Assembly (NCBI GenBank): GCA_937138295.1
Contig: CAKZOX010000201.1
Location: forward strand, 1-63,512
DNA from: an uncultured Campylobacteraceae bacterium
Lineage (GTDB): Bacteria > Campylobacterota > Campylobacteria > Campylobacterales > Arcobacteraceae
DNA length: 63,512 bases
Direction: 5' to 3'
The position numbers and the translations under genes are program-made. The notes below the pieces were generated by a model, which saw only the letters and a list, made by a program, of their open reading frames with translations, had not been told where the DNA came from and did not search any database. Position 1 is the stretch's first letter, and the number at the start of each line of letters is the position of its first letter. This document shows positions 47,921 through 54,439 of the stretch, piece by piece.

Positions 47921-47951
47921 AAAAGGGAGCCTATGTATTAGGCTCCCTTTT
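47921..47951 (+). terminator. Intrinsic terminator after nifU
   Basis: Perfect 13-bp stem, 47921-47933 (AAAAGGGAGCCTA) with 47939-47951 (TAGGCTCCCTTTT), five-base loop, followed by more T. The strongest terminator in the window. Confidence 0.93.
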
Positions 47952-48053: not shown

Positions 48054-50108
48054 ATGAAAAACAACATGGGATTTTTAAATATAGTTGACACAGAAAAACA
48101 AAAACTATTAGAATTGTTTGATAAAAATGTAATAGCAAGTAATACTGACTTAAAAGGTATTATTACATATGCTAGTCAAGCATTTTGTGACATAAGTGGA
48201 TATACTAAAAATGAATTGATTGGAAAAAACCATTCTATTTTAAGACATCCTGACATGCCCAAAGATTTATATAAAGACCTTTGGACTACTATTTTAGAAA
48301 AAAAAGAGTGGAAAGGTGAAGTAAAAAATCTTAAGAAAGATGGTGGATATTATTGGGTAAGAGTTACAATTACTCCTATATATGATAATAGAAATAATCA
48401 TACTGGATATAGTGCTATTAGAGAAGATATAACATCTCAAAAAAATGTAGAAAAACTATCATTTGATTTAAATCAAAAAATAAAATTAGTTGAATTAAAA
48501 AATTATGAAAACCAGTTGTTGTTAGAATCTTTTGACAAAAATATTATCTCAAGTAAAACAGACCTTAGGGGTGTAGTAACATATGTAAGTGAAGCATTTT
48601 GTAAAATAAGTGGATTTGAAAAAGAAGAATTACTTGGAATGACTCATAATGTGGTAAGACACGCTGATATGCCAAAAGAGTTGTTCACTGATTTATGGAA
48701 TACACTTTTACAAAAAAAAGTATGGCACGGTGAAATTAAAAATAGAACAAAAAATGGTGGATATTATTGGGTTGAAGCTATTATATCACCTTTATACAGT
48801 TCAAACAATCAACATATCGGTTATAGTGCAATTAGATACGATATAACTGCACAAAAAGAACTTGAAAGTTTAAGTAAAGAATTTGAAAAAAATAAACAGT
48901 TTTTAGATGATGTACTAGACTCTCAAGAACAAATAGTAGTTACAACTGATGGTGAATCACTTATTAGTATGAATAAAAGATTTTTAGATGTTTTTGGTTT
49001 TGAAGATAAAATGGAATTTTTATTTGATTATGAATGTATATGTGATTTATTTCATGAAGAAGATGGCTTTATAAAAAAAGATATGAATGGTCAAAGTTGG
49101 ATAAATTATATATTAAGTAATCCAAGTAAAATTCATAAAGTAAAGTTTATTATTGATAATCAACCAAAAATATATTCTGTAAGTGTTGGTAACTTAACAA
49201 ATGAAAATAATACAAGCATCAAATCAGCTGTATTTACAGATATTACAGAGTTAGAAAATGTAAAAAATAAAGTTGAATTTATAAATAAACAGATGAAAGA
49301 ATCAATTGAATATGCATCATTAATTCAACAATCAATTATTCCTAATAAAGTTGAATTAGATAAGTTTTTTTCTGATCATTTTGTTATGTGGGAACCAAAA
49401 GATATTGTTGGTGGGGATATTTATTTATTTGAAAAACTAAATGATAACGAAGCTTTAGTTTTAGTTGTAGATTGTACAGGGCATGGTGTTGCTGGTGCAT
49501 TTTTAACAATGTTAGTAAAGGCTGTAAAAAAGCAGTTACTATCAGAAGTATACAATGACTTAGGGGATATTAGCACATCTGATTTATTGAAAAAGTTTTC
49601 AGTTGCTATGCAACAACTTTTAATTCAAAATAATCAAGGTGATAATGTACATTTAGGCTTTGATGGAATGGTTTTATATATAAATAAAAGAAGAAGGGAA
49701 GTTAAATTCTCCAGTTCTGAAGTTCCACTTTTTTATAAAGATAAAAACCAAAATGTACAGATTGTAAAAGCTGATAGAAATTCATTTTCAATCAGAAATG
49801 CAAATGAAAATTATACTTTCAAAGAAAATGTAATTAGCCTAGAAGGTAATATGAGATTTTATATTACTACAGATGGATATATAGATCAAAACGGAGGAGA
49901 GAAGAGTTTTTCATTTGGTAAGAGTAACTTCAAGAAAATAATTGAAAAATCTATAAATATAAAACCAAGTGAACAGAAAGAAGTTTTTGAGAATCAATTA
50001 GCTATTTATCAAGGTCATGAGGAAAGAAATGATGATATAACAGTTGTTTGCTTTGAATTAAATGAAGAAGATACTGAAATGAATTTGGAACATCATTATA
50101 GTATATAA
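48054..50108 (+). CDS. Sia-type PP2C phosphatase with tandem Aer-like PAS domains
   Basis: A 684-residue soluble protein. PAS1 (about 20-130) and PAS2 (158-268) are near-duplicates of the Aer-type PAS (TDLKGIITYASQAFCDISGY, RHPDMP at 64-69 and RHADMP at 202-207, KNGGYYWV). PAS3 (about 283-398) is divergent. A short coiled segment leads to a SpoIIE-type PP2C (about 430-670) with metal Asp in DIVGGDIY (D455), DCTGHGVAGAF (D473), TTDGYID and RNDDITVV. In Pseudomonas, SiaA is a membrane phosphatase that dephosphorylates SiaC; here the same catalytic domain has cytosolic PAS sensors in place of the membrane sensor. First of five genes (SiaB, SiaC, degenerate GGDEF, HD-GYP). The start ATG has no strong ribosome site; 48066 is an alternative. 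Confidence 0.87.
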   Translation: MKNNMGFLNIVDTEKQKLLELFDKNVIASNTDLKGIITYASQAFCDISGYTKNELIGKNHSILRHPDMPKDLYKDLWTTILEKKEWKGEVKNLKKDGGYYWVRVTITPIYDNRNNHTGYSAIREDITSQKNVEKLSFDLNQKIKLVELKNYENQLLLESFDKNIISSKTDLRGVVTYVSEAFCKISGFEKEELLGMTHNVVRHADMPKELFTDLWNTLLQKKVWHGEIKNRTKNGGYYWVEAIISPLYSSNNQHIGYSAIRYDITAQKELESLSKEFEKNKQFLDDVLDSQEQIVVTTDGESLISMNKRFLDVFGFEDKMEFLFDYECICDLFHEEDGFIKKDMNGQSWINYILSNPSKIHKVKFIIDNQPKIYSVSVGNLTNENNTSIKSAVFTDITELENVKNKVEFINKQMKESIEYASLIQQSIIPNKVELDKFFSDHFVMWEPKDIVGGDIYLFEKLNDNEALVLVVDCTGHGVAGAFLTMLVKAVKKQLLSEVYNDLGDISTSDLLKKFSVAMQQLLIQNNQGDNVHLGFDGMVLYINKRRREVKFSSSEVPLFYKDKNQNVQIVKADRNSFSIRNANENYTFKENVISLEGNMRFYITTDGYIDQNGGEKSFSFGKSNFKKIIEKSINIKPSEQKEVFENQLAIYQGHEERNDDITVVCFELNEEDTEMNLEHHYSI

Positions 50109-50117
50109 AGGAATATT

Positions 50118-50675
50118 ATGAATATATCTATGGTTCAAGATCTAATTGAAAAAGATGGAATTGTTTTTTTAACATATGGTGGTTCTTTAACTCAAACCTT
50201 AATTGCAGGTATGACAGAAGCCCTTGAAAATGAAGCTAAATTTAATGATTTAAATATGTCAACATCAAACAATATATTTACTATATTTATTGAGCTTGCC
50301 CAAAATATGATGAATTATTCAAAGAAAAATCATGAAAATGAAAATGGTAGAAAATCAGAAGGTTTAATTTTAGTTGGTAAATCTACTAATAATGAATATT
50401 TTATACATAGTCAAAATGTTGTGAATTCTAAAGATATGCACTCTATTCAAAAAAAACTAGAATTAATAAAAAATATGGATAAAGAGACTATTAAAAGTGA
50501 ATATAGAAGATTAAGAAAAGAAGGTAGAGACTTACATCCATTAGGTGCGGGAATAGGCTTTTATGAAATTTCAAAGAGATGTGATGAAATAGACTTTGAA
50601 TTTAAAAAAGTTGATGAAAATAGATTCTATTTTCACTTTAAAGCGAAAATTACAGAAAAAGTTGAGGTTAATTAA
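50118..50675 (+). CDS. siaB: SiaB-family protein kinase (DUF6272)
   Basis: A 185-residue protein with a small GHKL-like layout: N-box-like helix IFIELAQNMMNYSKKN and a glycine-rich LGAGIGFYEISKRC near the C-terminus. In Pseudomonas SiaB phosphorylates SiaC, opposing SiaA. It follows the phosphatase by 9 bases with an AAAGGA site and abuts siaC directly. Confidence 0.85.
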   Translation: MNISMVQDLIEKDGIVFLTYGGSLTQTLIAGMTEALENEAKFNDLNMSTSNNIFTIFIELAQNMMNYSKKNHENENGRKSEGLILVGKSTNNEYFIHSQNVVNSKDMHSIQKKLELIKNMDKETIKSEYRRLRKEGRDLHPLGAGIGFYEISKRCDEIDFEFKKVDENRFYFHFKAKITEKVEVN

Positions 50676-51056
50676 ATGTTAGAAAACTTAATAGTTCAAG
50701 AAACTCAATATACACCCTATATTGATTTAAATAAAGATACAAATAAAATAGTTATTAGAGGTAAATCATATCCTGAAAATACATTTGAATTTTATGAGCC
50801 AATGTTAACTTGGATGAAAGAGTTCATTAAATATGATGAAAATAAGAAATTAGATGTAACTATGGAAATTATATATTTTAATTCAAGTAGTTCTAAAATA
50901 TTTTTTGATTTATTTGATATTTTATTTGAAGCAAGTAAGAAAATGGAAGTTAATATAATTTGGTTATGTGATGAAGAAAATGAATGTGCCATTGAAGCTG
51001 GAGAAGACTTTAAAGAAGACTTTGAAGAGTTAAATTTCAATATTACTTTTAAATAG
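50676..51056 (+). CDS. siaC: SiaC-family phospho-switch protein (DUF1987)
   Basis: A 126-residue protein with the DUF1987 pattern: IVIRGKSYPENTFEFYEPMLTWM, then MEIIYFNSSSSKIFFDLFDIL, then acidic IEAGEDFKEDFEEL. Pseudomonas SiaC is phosphorylated on Thr68, in its unphosphorylated form binding and activating the cyclase SiaD. The corresponding stretch here is N-S-S-S-S (residues 69-73), so the acceptor would be a Ser, probably Ser70; alignment is from memory. Adjacent to siaB. Confidence 0.85.
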   Translation: MLENLIVQETQYTPYIDLNKDTNKIVIRGKSYPENTFEFYEPMLTWMKEFIKYDENKKLDVTMEIIYFNSSSSKIFFDLFDILFEASKKMEVNIIWLCDEENECAIEAGEDFKEDFEELNFNITFK

Positions 51057-51068
51057 AGGTATTTTAAA

Positions 51069-51971
51069 ATGATATCTAAAGAACTTAATACTTATAACTA
51101 CGGTAAAAATATTCTTGAGGAATTAAAAAATTTATATTCTGATGGAAACTTAGTAAATGAATATGAGAAGTTATTAAATGATTATAGTTCTTTAGTTAAT
51201 AGATATGAAAAAATACTTAAGATTTCAGATAAGTTTGAAGTAAACTTTTTTAAAGAGAATGAAAATTTAAAATCTACACTAGACTATACTTTAAAAAAAG
51301 CTCAATCAAAAATACTTGATAATATTACAGAACATAGAAAAACAAAAGTTGCAAAATCTTTGTATAAAGAAAAGATTTATTTGTTAGAGGATGAAATTGA
51401 TATTTTAATACATCAAAATCAATTTTTAAAAAATAAGTTAGAGTTTTATATATCAAAGTATGGTGACACAGATTTTGTTTTTTCTCAAAAAGAAATCATG
51501 GAATATCTTTTAAAATTTTCTTTAAATAAAAAAGAACTAGAAAATAAAAAGATTGACGATATTTTAAAACGGGAATTGTTAGTTCACGATGAGCTTATAC
51601 TTGTAAAATTAGGGATAACAGATTTTTATAAAGTAGTTTCAAATATTAAAAATATGAATGATATTGAAAATTTTATACTTCTTATATCTAAATTTATAAG
51701 GAATAGTTTTCACAATAGTGATATTATATTTCACCATGAATATGATGAATTTTATATTATTGTTGAAGATAGAGATATTGATAGTATTAAAAAAACCCAC
51801 AAAAATATGAATTCAAAAAGAGATATTATGGGTTTAGATATAAAATTTACATGCTCTGTTATAACTGTTAATAAAGATAATATTAATGAATCAATAAAAA
51901 TATCAAATGAATTATATACTAAAGCATCACAATTAAATGAAAGAATAGTTTGTAATAGGACTACATTATGA
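51069..51971 (+). CDS. SiaD-position protein with coiled coil and degenerate GGDEF
   Basis: A 300-residue protein. Residues about 20-130 form a long helical, coiled-coil-like region; about 165-295 fold like a GGDEF domain by pattern (LVKLGITDFYKVVSNI and HHEYDEFYIIV). Where active enzymes have D-I-D-x-F it has G-I-T-D-F, and the signature reads EYDEF (224-228), so both a metal Asp and the GG are gone. It should not make c-di-GMP. It occupies the place of the cyclase SiaD in the operon and could bind SiaC, GTP or the HD-GYP partner instead. Overlaps the HD-GYP gene by 4 bases. Confidence 0.75.
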   Translation: MISKELNTYNYGKNILEELKNLYSDGNLVNEYEKLLNDYSSLVNRYEKILKISDKFEVNFFKENENLKSTLDYTLKKAQSKILDNITEHRKTKVAKSLYKEKIYLLEDEIDILIHQNQFLKNKLEFYISKYGDTDFVFSQKEIMEYLLKFSLNKKELENKKIDDILKRELLVHDELILVKLGITDFYKVVSNIKNMNDIENFILLISKFIRNSFHNSDIIFHHEYDEFYIIVEDRDIDSIKKTHKNMNSKRDIMGLDIKFTCSVITVNKDNINESIKISNELYTKASQLNERIVCNRTTL

Positions 51972-52765
51972 ATAAAATAAAAGATAATAAACTAATTTCT
52001 GAATTAGAGGAATTAAAATCACAATTTGATGAAACTGCAAATAAAATCATAAAAGACATGAGAAGACAAGATAAAATCATGTTAAGAAGTGATCAAAGAC
52101 AACAATTTGAATATGACCAACTTCAAGAAAAACTAAATGAAGTTGAACTATTAAAAAAAGAGATAGAAGATACTCAAAGAGAAGTTATTTATACAGTTGG
52201 GGCAATAGTTGAAACTAGAAGTAAAGAAACAGGAAATCATGTTAAAAGAGTTGCTGAGTATTCAGAATTATTTGCTTTGAAATATGGACTTGATGAAAGA
52301 GAAGCTGAAATAATAAAACAAGCCAGTCCTATGCATGATGTGGGAAAAATTGGAATACAAGATTCTATATTAAACAAACCAGGTAGATTAAATGAGAGTG
52401 AGAGAGACGTAATGGAAACTCACGCAAGAATAGGTTATGAAATGTTAAAACATTCTAATAGAAAACTACTAAAAGTTGCAGCTATCATAGCCCATGAACA
52501 TCATGAAAAATGGGATGGAACGGGATATCCTAGAGGCTTAAAGGGTGAAGAGATATCTATTTATGGAAGAATTACTGCTATTGCTGATGTATTTGATGCT
52601 TTAGGTAGTGTTAGATGTTATAAACCTGCATGGGAAGATGAAAAAATATTTCAATTAATAAATGAAGAAAATGGTAAACAATTTGATCCAAAACTTGTGG
52701 AGATATTCTTTGATAATTTAGATGAATTTTTAGAAATTAGAGAAAAATATAAAGACGTAGTATAA
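51968..52765 (+). CDS. HD-GYP domain phosphodiesterase
   Basis: A 265-residue protein with an N-terminal coiled coil (residues 1-75, rich in Glu/Lys/Gln) and a full HD-GYP domain: H91 in ETGNHVKR, HD in MHDVGKIG (123-124), AHEHHEKWDGTGYPRGL with GYP at 186-188 and ADVFDAL. All metal and signature residues are intact, so c-di-GMP (or a related dinucleotide) hydrolysis is expected. No REC or other sensor is present, so control probably comes from the Sia proteins encoded with it (overlap 4 bases). Confidence 0.9.
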   Translation: MNKIKDNKLISELEELKSQFDETANKIIKDMRRQDKIMLRSDQRQQFEYDQLQEKLNEVELLKKEIEDTQREVIYTVGAIVETRSKETGNHVKRVAEYSELFALKYGLDEREAEIIKQASPMHDVGKIGIQDSILNKPGRLNESERDVMETHARIGYEMLKHSNRKLLKVAAIIAHEHHEKWDGTGYPRGLKGEEISIYGRITAIADVFDALGSVRCYKPAWEDEKIFQLINEENGKQFDPKLVEIFFDNLDEFLEIREKYKDVV

Positions 52766-52798: not shown

Positions 52799-52824
52799 CC
52801 TCAAAACTACAAAAGGATTATATT

Positions 52825-53049
52825 ATGTCTGCTCAAGATAAAGAAATAGCTCAATTACATGATGATATGGTAGAAGACTTGTATGCTTTAGTTAATAAAT
52901 ACATGAAAATCATTAGTTTAGATGTTCCTGAAAATGACGAAAAAGAAGCACTTAAAAAAATTACTGTAATTATGAGAGATGCTTTACACAATGTCGAAGA
53001 AGTAGCTAATAATATGCCTGATATCAAAATAATTGGAGAAGATGATTAG
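52825..53049 (+). CDS. Small conserved-looking acidic protein of unknown function
   Basis: A 74-residue soluble, mostly helical, acidic protein ([27 protein letters not shown], then [30 protein letters not shown]). I do not recognise the family. It has its own promoter (TATAAT at 52793) and a good AAAGGA site, and its stop lies 1 base before the argH start, so it is coupled to argH. It could be a small chaperone-like or regulatory partner, but nothing in the sequence supports a specific role. Confidence 0.8.
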
Positions 53050-53050
53050 A

Positions 53051-54439
53051 ATGTCAAATCAGAATAATTCACAAATTTTAAAAAATACAAATGCACAAAT
53101 CTTAGATGAGTTTAATGCCTCAATAATGTTTGATAAAGAGTTATATGCTCAAGATATCAAAGGAAGTATTGCCCACTCTAAAATGTTATGTAAGCAGGGA
53201 GTTCTTACAAGTGAAGAACAAGAAGCCATTGAAAATGGTTTATTACAAGTAAAAGATGAAATTGAATCAGGTAATTTTGAGTTTACATTAGCAACTGAAG
53301 ATATTCATATGGCAGTTGAAAGTAGATTAACTGAAATAATAGGCGAACCAGGTAAAAAACTTCACACTGCAAGAAGTAGAAATGACCAAGTTGCAACTGA
53401 TTTTAGACTTTATGTTCAAGAAAAATCTCAATCAATTATGAGTCAACTAAAAGAGGTAGTAGAAACTTTTGTAAATGTAGCTTCAAAACATACAGAAACA
53501 TTAATTCCAGGTATGACTCACTTACAACACGCTCAACCTTTAAATTTTGGTTACCATATGCTTACATATGCAAATATGTTTAAAAGAGATTTTGAAAGAT
53601 TTGAAAGTTCTTATGAAAGAAATCATTATTGTCCATTAGGAAGTGCTGCATTAGCAGGTACTCCACATAATATTGATAGATTTGAGTCAAGTGATTTATT
53701 AGGATTTAAAGCTCCAACAGCACATGCTATGGATACAGTTTCAGATAGAGATTTTGCTTTAGAGATTTTATTTAATATAAGTACAGCTATGATGCATGTT
53801 TCAAGAATTTCTGAAGAACTTATTTTATGGTCATCTTATGAATATCAATTTGTAAGAATGAGTGATGAATATGCTACAACTTCTTCAATTATGCCTCAAA
53901 AGAAAAACCCTGATGTACCTGAATTATTAAGAGGTAAGACAGGAAGAGTTTATGGGAATTTAATTTCATTATTAACTGTTATGAAAGGTTTACCTTTAGC
54001 TTATAATAAAGATACTCAAGAAGATAAAGAGGGTGTTTTTGATAGTGTTAAAACTATTGAAATATCTTTAGCAATTTTAAATGAAGTTATCAAAACTATG
54101 ATTGTAAACGTAGATAAAATGGAAAATGCTTGTAAAATAGGGCACTTAACTGCAACTGATTTAGCTGATTTCTTAGTTCAAAAACAAAATATGCCTTTTA
54201 GAACTGCTTATTATATTACAAAAGATGTTGTAACTAGAGCAAATGAATTAAATAAAGATATTAGCGAATTATCTATTGAAGAAATTAGAAGTTCAAATGA
54301 TGAATTAAAAAATGTTAGTGAAGAGATTGTAATGTTCTTGGATTTAAGAAATTCAATGAATTCTAGAAAGTCATTTGGTGGAACTTCTACAGCTCAAACA
54401 TTAAGTCAAATAGAAGTATTTAAAGAGTGGCTAAAATAA
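53051..54439 (+). CDS. argH: Argininosuccinate lyase
   Basis: About 462 residues; catalyses the last step of arginine synthesis (argininosuccinate to arginine and fumarate). I start at ATG 53051 (MSNQNNSQ), just after the preceding stop, rather than at an in-frame upstream codon at 53033 inside the previous gene. Signatures: [34 protein letters not shown] and the fumarase/lyase loop [19 protein letters not shown] with the catalytic Ser. An arginine-pathway companion, argC, lies at 56629. Confidence 0.95.

Follow-up and report, generated by a model that had tools for sequence, protein, structure and literature searches.

A SiaABC-type partner switch with an HD-GYP protein and a degenerate GGDEF protein as predicted SiaC clients in an uncultured member of the Arcobacteraceae

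What does a Sia-type phosphorylation switch control when the cyclase at its end has lost its active site and an HD-GYP gene follows? This question is raised by five genes on one strand of a 63,512-nucleotide stretch (positions 1 to 63,512 of contig CAKZOX010000201.1, assembly GCA_937138295.1; hereafter called the window) of an uncultured Arcobacteraceae bacterium, which between positions 48054 and 52765 encode, in this order, a phosphatase, a SiaB-family kinase, SiaC, a pseudo-cyclase, and an HD-GYP protein (Table 1). In Pseudomonas aeruginosa, unphosphorylated SiaC binds the stalk of the cyclase SiaD and converts inactive pentamers into active dimers, and phosphorylation of SiaC prevents this binding (PMC8457831). 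SiaC has so far been studied as the activator of one cyclase, and the single open-access paper found on its family, DUF1987, treats only SiaD as output; the authors of the eLife study proposed modulation of neighbouring proteins as a common role of DUF1987 members (PMC8457831). The analysis presented here suggests that the locus is probably a SiaABC partner switch of which the output has changed from synthesis to breakdown of cyclic di-GMP (c-di-GMP), with SiaC, by analogy with SiaD, docking directly on the HD-GYP protein.

The switch core and the HD-GYP protein

Judged by sequence, the locus has the elements of a SiaABC partner switch, i.e., a SiaB-family kinase, a SiaC with a phosphorylatable residue, and a SiaA-type PP2C domain, and the phosphatase as well as the core of the switch appear functional. 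In its match to SiaA (PDB 6k4e, E 9.3e-43), the PP2C domain retains the metal-site motifs VGGDIY, VVDCTGHG, and NDDIT; the full-length SiaA equivalog NF038263 is not reached (219, cut-off 700), because the match to SiaA is confined to the phosphatase part. The kinase matches PF19788 (DUF6272) above its cut-off (108 bits) and NF038262, SiaB_fam_kinase (129.6 bits, cut-off 85), and does not reach the stricter P. aeruginosa SiaB equivalog NF038264 (79.7, cut-off 225). Likewise, SiaC, of which a single gene copy was found in the assembly, matches PF09345 (128.3 bits, cut-off 24.5) and PDB 6k4f (E 3.5e-17), and stays below the P. aeruginosa SiaC equivalog NF038265 (100.5, cut-off 150). The phosphoacceptor position is a serine in all 38 HD-linked SiaC proteins and in 34 of the 37 others. 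Moreover, the contact residues Y65, N67, S68, S69, and D79 are invariant across the 38 HD-linked proteins, in which the SiaD-facing residues are either invariant or uniformly replaced. The Sia-type module recognised in the initial annotation was thereby confirmed by Pfam, NCBIfam, and PDB matches, and all its gene coordinates and residue numbers proved correct.

The PAS domains of the phosphatase resemble those of Aer (8dik, E 1.9e-26) and NifL (2gj3, E 3.8e-16); the earlier label 'redox-type' rests on this similarity, which is evidence for, though no proof of, a flavin or redox input. By inspection, an R-H-x-D signature, which we take to be required for flavin adenine dinucleotide binding in Aer, is present in PAS1 and PAS2 and missing from PAS3. 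PP2C phosphatases at other SiaC loci (L031, L032, L035, L051, and L086) have very diverse sensor parts, consisting of extracellular solute-binding domains, ABC-type binding domains, or several PAS domains, and at L031 a single receiver-domain protein precedes siaB.

The HD-GYP protein matches Pfam HD_5 and HD above cut-off and is aligned across its whole domain with PmGH of Persephonella marina (PDB 4mcw, E 9.1e-64 by sequence), an HD-GYP c-di-GMP phosphodiesterase with a tri-nuclear metal centre that is also the best fold match. The metal-ligand and GYP residues of PmGH are conserved, and across 16 homologues no variation occurs in the HD and GYP motifs or in the remaining histidines and aspartates of the site. 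From these residues the protein is an intact enzyme, as had been claimed, and the phosphodiesterase output expected in the initial annotation is supported. The assignment of c-di-GMP as its probable substrate derives from the similarity to PmGH only, and removal of c-di-GMP is very probably the output of the locus. Unlike PmGH, which has its own N-terminal domain, the window protein starts with a predicted SiaC-docking stalk, modelled as a helix spanning residues 8-81.

A SiaC-docking motif and its distribution

In the crystal structure, SiaC touches residues R74, K77, V78, R80, I81, S82, D83, R84, Y85, and Q86 of SiaD, and a second copy of the contact motif lies around S50/Q54 (PMC8457831); the contact segments read from the 7e6g sequence are RLEKVARISDRYQ and RLERIARISDGFQ. 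With the docking motif defined as R..K[V/I]...SD..Q in a coiled-coil stalk, the pattern occurs in two of the 56 window open reading frames of at least 100 amino acids, i.e., those of the pseudo-cyclase (RYEKILKISDKFE) and the HD-GYP protein (RQDKIMLRSDQRQ). The latter reproduces the spacing of SiaD R74/K77/V78/S82/D83/Q86 with all six residues; in the pseudo-cyclase five of the six contacts are identical or similar, and Glu replaces Gln86. When the N-terminal sequences were shuffled 100000 times, the pattern arose 9 and 79 times. A profile of the SiaD motif only proved too restrictive for the clients in Campylobacterota; a leave-out stalk profile, from which sequences of the window, of pseudo-cyclases, and of RQDKIM-type HD-GYP proteins were excluded, matches the window pseudo-cyclase (E 2.8e-5). 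The motifs in both stalks are therefore predicted SiaC docking sites, in analogy to SiaD.

For the distribution of the motif, 63 distinct SiaC loci were surveyed, most of them from Campylobacterota, with motif-based and uncurated labels. HD-GYP proteins are the commonest SiaC output in the surveyed Campylobacterota: approximately 38 of the loci encode an HD-GYP-type protein downstream, in most cases immediately after siaC, four have a pseudo-cyclase between siaC and the HD-GYP gene, and three have a GGDEF protein with intact signature. SiaC-HD-GYP pairs were also encountered outside this phylum, in Vibrio, Oceanospirillaceae, and one Methylococcaceae metagenome-assembled genome. The arrangement had been thought undescribed; no published account of SiaC acting on an HD-GYP protein was found in the open-access literature, to which the search and this provisional result apply. 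The succession of SiaC and HD-GYP is not rare across the surveyed loci. In ten related genomes the motif is present in all five SiaC-adjacent HD-GYP proteins versus none of the 42 located elsewhere, and in the whole collection 36 of the 38 HD-GYP hits near SiaC carry it. Of the remaining two hits, one has a weakened copy, RNYKTMERSDKQQ (L093), and the other is the second piece of a gene that is split; every intact HD-GYP protein of a SiaC locus thus bears the motif, one of them in weakened form. The uncorrected table of motif against SiaC adjacency gives a Fisher p of 2e-16, with five 'non-adjacent' positives that all lie at SiaC loci just beyond the distance or orientation cut, and the tabulation of 37:0 versus 0:42 treats the weakened copy as a positive and omits the split-gene fragment. 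One SiaC-linked HD-GYP gene (L077:6158-6956, genome G069) is divided over two overlapping frames and appears to be broken or to contain a sequencing error.

At the level of genomes, the docking-stalk profile (E <= 1e-4) detects its target in 21 of the 22 SiaC-positive versus none of the 82 SiaC-negative genomes of the family (Fisher p 4e-21); a 13-residue match in one SiaC-negative genome (E 0.0098) was counted as chance. Four hits are unlinked to siaC (G000, G061 twice, and G074), all in SiaC-positive genomes.

Several results weigh against direct control of the HD-GYP protein by SiaC. Co-occurrence of motif and SiaC is partly due to operon linkage, so that many stalk hits are not independent of operon inheritance, and the stalk profile itself was built from SiaC-locus sequences; in addition, its search yields no docking stalk in the SiaC-positive genome G090. 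The motif flanks in HD-GYP proteins are unlike those in SiaD and the kinases, and consequently the leave-out profile, which holds no HD-GYP sequences of the window type, misses the window HD-GYP protein, for which the evidence is therefore the motif itself together with its distribution. Moreover, the structure model of the pseudo-cyclase is of modest confidence (predicted template modelling score 0.47), and stimulation rather than inhibition of the HD-GYP protein is predicted with a sign taken from SiaD only.

Operon linkage would also fit the view that the stalk motif is a mere dimerisation element of small signalling proteins and that the HD-GYP protein is constitutive and untouched by SiaC, as would the position of the motif inside a long predicted helix that probably forms a coiled coil. 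That view is unlikely, as the motif positions coincide with the crystallographic SiaC contacts, the motif is common to unrelated catalytic domains and missing from other HD-GYP proteins, and its unlinked carriers are restricted to SiaC-positive genomes.

Larger HD-domain proteins of 450-475 amino acids, some in tandem, precede or follow siaC at L101, L103, and L104; most have the docking motif, and siaB can follow siaC there. In two gammaproteobacterial genomes, SiaD-like cyclases with intact GGEEF and two stalk motifs are encoded right after siaC (L142:4793-5581 and L147:5057-5860).

The pseudo-cyclase

The fourth protein has no Pfam match at all, GGDEF included, and phmmer against the PDB gave nothing useful; it matches the NCBIfam SiaD model weakly and in the stalk only (residues 29-69, E 0.014), remaining below the SiaD cut-off (NF038266, 14.8 bits, cut-off 290). 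Its structure model (predicted local distance difference test 69.5 overall, mostly 74-88 in the C-terminal domain) consists of a long helical stalk and a C-terminal alpha/beta domain, and the closest PDB fold is SiaD in its complex with SiaC (7e6g, E 3.7e-7), with matches to other GGDEF proteins as well. The family profile matches intact GGEEF proteins of other genomes (best E 5.9e-11), and the hhalign alignment with SiaD proteins is short and weak (probability 19%, E 0.0012), so that the assignment to GGDEF depends mainly on the fold match together with the genome-wide profile hits. By the model, the protein would thus retain a GGDEF fold. The same profile matches a protein of genome G046 that looks like a PAS protein with a degenerate GGDEF domain, located away from siaC and devoid of the docking motif.

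A genome search for SiaC loci with a degenerate GGDEF protein and an HD-GYP protein, as proposed in the initial annotation, did recover such loci: three homologues were found in the 104 family genomes, every one adjoining siaC, and the pseudo-cyclase is present in four of these genomes from three genera, with an intact reading frame in all four. At the GGDEF signature the window protein has EYDEF and the homologues TLEAF, ELETF, and KNEVF; at the metal-aspartate site GITDF is accompanied by SLNNF, KLKNF, and KLNNF; and at the RxxD I-site position just upstream of EYDEF the window has HNSD and the homologues QKED, HQDC, and NKNG. Signature, metal aspartate, and I-site arginine are gone in all four, differently in each. 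The loss of the active site, already noted for the window, is therefore not a local lesion, since the homologues are degenerate at the same place, and it is old and tolerated, with the frame kept.

Degenerate GGDEF domains can serve as receptors in other proteins, and with the fold retained in the model the 51069 product might still sense or make a nucleotide, i.e., guanosine triphosphate or c-di-GMP, and act as a receptor; the loss of all three sites in four homologues, different in each, makes this improbable. The fast divergence of the GGDEF-like part (24-30% identity between the window and the three homologues) and the small number of genomes involved could suit a decaying siaD, left behind once the HD-GYP protein had taken over the output. 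This is doubtful given the frame kept intact in three genera and a stalk that is better conserved than the catalytic part (50-53% identity over residues 71-100). Besides the docking motif, the stalk has a second strongly conserved block (residues 71-93); a second SiaC motif as in SiaD was looked for at the expected 32-residue offset, and none was found.

The initial annotation had considered the pseudo-cyclase as an adaptor between SiaC and the HD-GYP protein. As a required adaptor, with an HD-GYP protein that itself does not bind SiaC, it would agree with the gene order, the 4-bp overlap with the HD-GYP frame, and a docking motif next to a conserved block that could bind another protein. This role has little probability: the pseudo-cyclase is missing from most SiaC-HD-GYP loci, for which reason it was rejected as sole adaptor, and the HD-GYP protein's own motif is conserved with or without it. 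The pseudo-cyclase is best regarded as a second, non-catalytic SiaC client. Equipped with a docking motif and devoid of an active site, it most likely either competes for or scaffolds SiaC, a sink or scaffold role that is tentatively favoured at somewhat below even chance, or pairs its stalk with that of the HD-GYP protein, a mixed-stalk partnership that is possible and less likely. A single origin of the insertion could not be read from the HD-GYP tree, which is too poorly resolved, with good support for 7 of its 29 inner branches. The retained dead cyclase beside a phosphodiesterase predicted to be live offers a clean case for the study of non-catalytic GGDEF proteins.

Proposed mechanism, further clients, and surroundings of the locus

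In the proposed partner switch, phosphorylation of SiaC at Ser70 would be under the control of the PAS-PP2C phosphatase and of SiaB as kinase. With the phosphatase active, dephosphorylated SiaC would dock on the coiled-coil stalk of the HD-GYP protein, as it does on SiaD, and hold it as an active dimer, upon which c-di-GMP would be hydrolysed and its level would fall. The same SiaC could dock on the stalk of the pseudo-cyclase, in which both the active and the product-inhibition site are lost.

The locus shares with SiaABCD of P. aeruginosa (Chen et al. 2021, PMC8457831; Poh et al. 2020, PMC7647112) the order of PP2C phosphatase, SiaB, and SiaC, and a SiaD-like stalk with a SiaC-contact motif. 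It differs in having Ser for Thr68, three PAS domains for the SiaA sensor part, a fourth protein without cyclase site (EYDEF in place of the intact GG(D/E)EF of a complete SiaABCD system) and with one recognisable motif versus two in SiaD, and an HD-GYP protein that bears a docking motif of its own. The HptB-HsbR-HsbA-HsbD and BgrUWV-BgrR systems, as cited in PMC7647112 and PMC8457831, follow the same phosphatase/kinase/antagonist logic with direct binding to a c-di-GMP enzyme, whereas their antagonist is of the STAS type and their client a cyclase, no HD-GYP client being described in those citing passages.

Stalk carriers are not confined to these two enzyme types. The window's genome encodes a 317-amino-acid histidine-kinase-like protein with docking stalk RLEKILKISDKQQ, unlinked to siaC and adjoining TRAP-transporter-like genes (G000:C4), and SiaC is therefore probably a hub with several clients. 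Histidine-kinase-like proteins with stalk RLDKIIKQSDKMQ also occur near siaB-siaC-HD-GYP at L076, L079, L081, L086, and other arcobacter SiaC loci, so that two clients of SiaC are probable at these loci too. Whether SiaC is a general phospho-controlled hub that reads a short transplantable motif on cyclases, HD-GYP proteins, histidine kinases, and PAS-containing kinases, with the dead cyclase kept here solely as a SiaC partner that shapes the HD-GYP response, is evenly balanced. The survey suggests that the SiaC switch governs c-di-GMP destruction in many bacteria, and histidine kinases via the same motif; in many marine bacteria the same switch appears to be reused for the opposite output. 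Docking motif and phosphodiesterase output lend concrete form to the eLife proposal on DUF1987 proteins, and the motif provides a sequence rule for predicting the SiaC-obeying proteins of a genome, unlinked ones included.

Table 1. Features of the sia-type locus and of an unlinked stalk carrier in the same genome
Feature	Position	Strand	Basis or description
Terminator-like hairpin	47921..47951	+	13-bp stem and T tail; match to consensus only
SiaA-type protein phosphatase, three PAS domains and PP2C/SpoIIE	48054..50108	+	684 aa; Pfam PAS, SpoIIE; PDB 6k4e
SiaB-family kinase (DUF6272)	50118..50675	+	PF19788, NF038262
SiaC regulatory phosphoprotein	50676..51056	+	PF09345; PDB 6k4f
Ser70 codon of SiaC (equivalent to phosphoacceptor Thr68 of P. 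aeruginosa SiaC)	50883..50885	+	alignment
SiaD-like pseudo-cyclase, coiled-coil stalk and degenerate GGDEF domain	51069..51971	+	300 aa; model, fold match, profile
Predicted SiaC-docking motif RYEKILKISDKFE, pseudo-cyclase stalk aa 45-57	51201..51239	+	SiaD contact spacing; leave-out profile
GITDF aa 182-186, lost metal-aspartate site of pseudo-cyclase	51612..51626	+	homologue alignment
EYDEF aa 224-228, lost GGDEF signature of pseudo-cyclase	51738..51752	+	aligned on SiaD GGEEF
HD-GYP phosphodiesterase (predicted), long N-terminal helical stalk	51968..52765	+	265 aa; PDB 4mcw by sequence and fold
Predicted SiaC-docking motif RQDKIMLRSDQRQ, HD-GYP stalk aa 33-45	52064..52102	+	pattern and distribution
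HD dyad aa 123-124 of HD-GYP protein	52334..52339	+	invariant in 16 homologues; aligned with PmGH HD
GYP aa 186-188 of HD-GYP protein	52523..52531	+	invariant in 16 homologues
Unlinked kinase stalk	G000:C4:27893-27991 (L220:2644-3597)	minus	leave-out profile E 6e-10

The source assembly, assigned to Campylobacterota, is fragmented (completeness 86.75%, contamination 6.33%). The hairpin lies 3' of a nifU-like gene and divides the upstream operon from the sia-type genes. Translational coupling of pseudo-cyclase and HD-GYP protein had been claimed from the 4-bp overlap of their frames (ATGA); the overlap is present in the window but not conserved, the spacing being +8 to +10 bp in three relatives, and coupling is therefore only conjectural. 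Downstream, a small unlisted open reading frame of approximately 74 amino acids (52824-53050) lies between the HD-GYP and argininosuccinate lyase genes, and the true start of the latter is probably the ATG at 53051.

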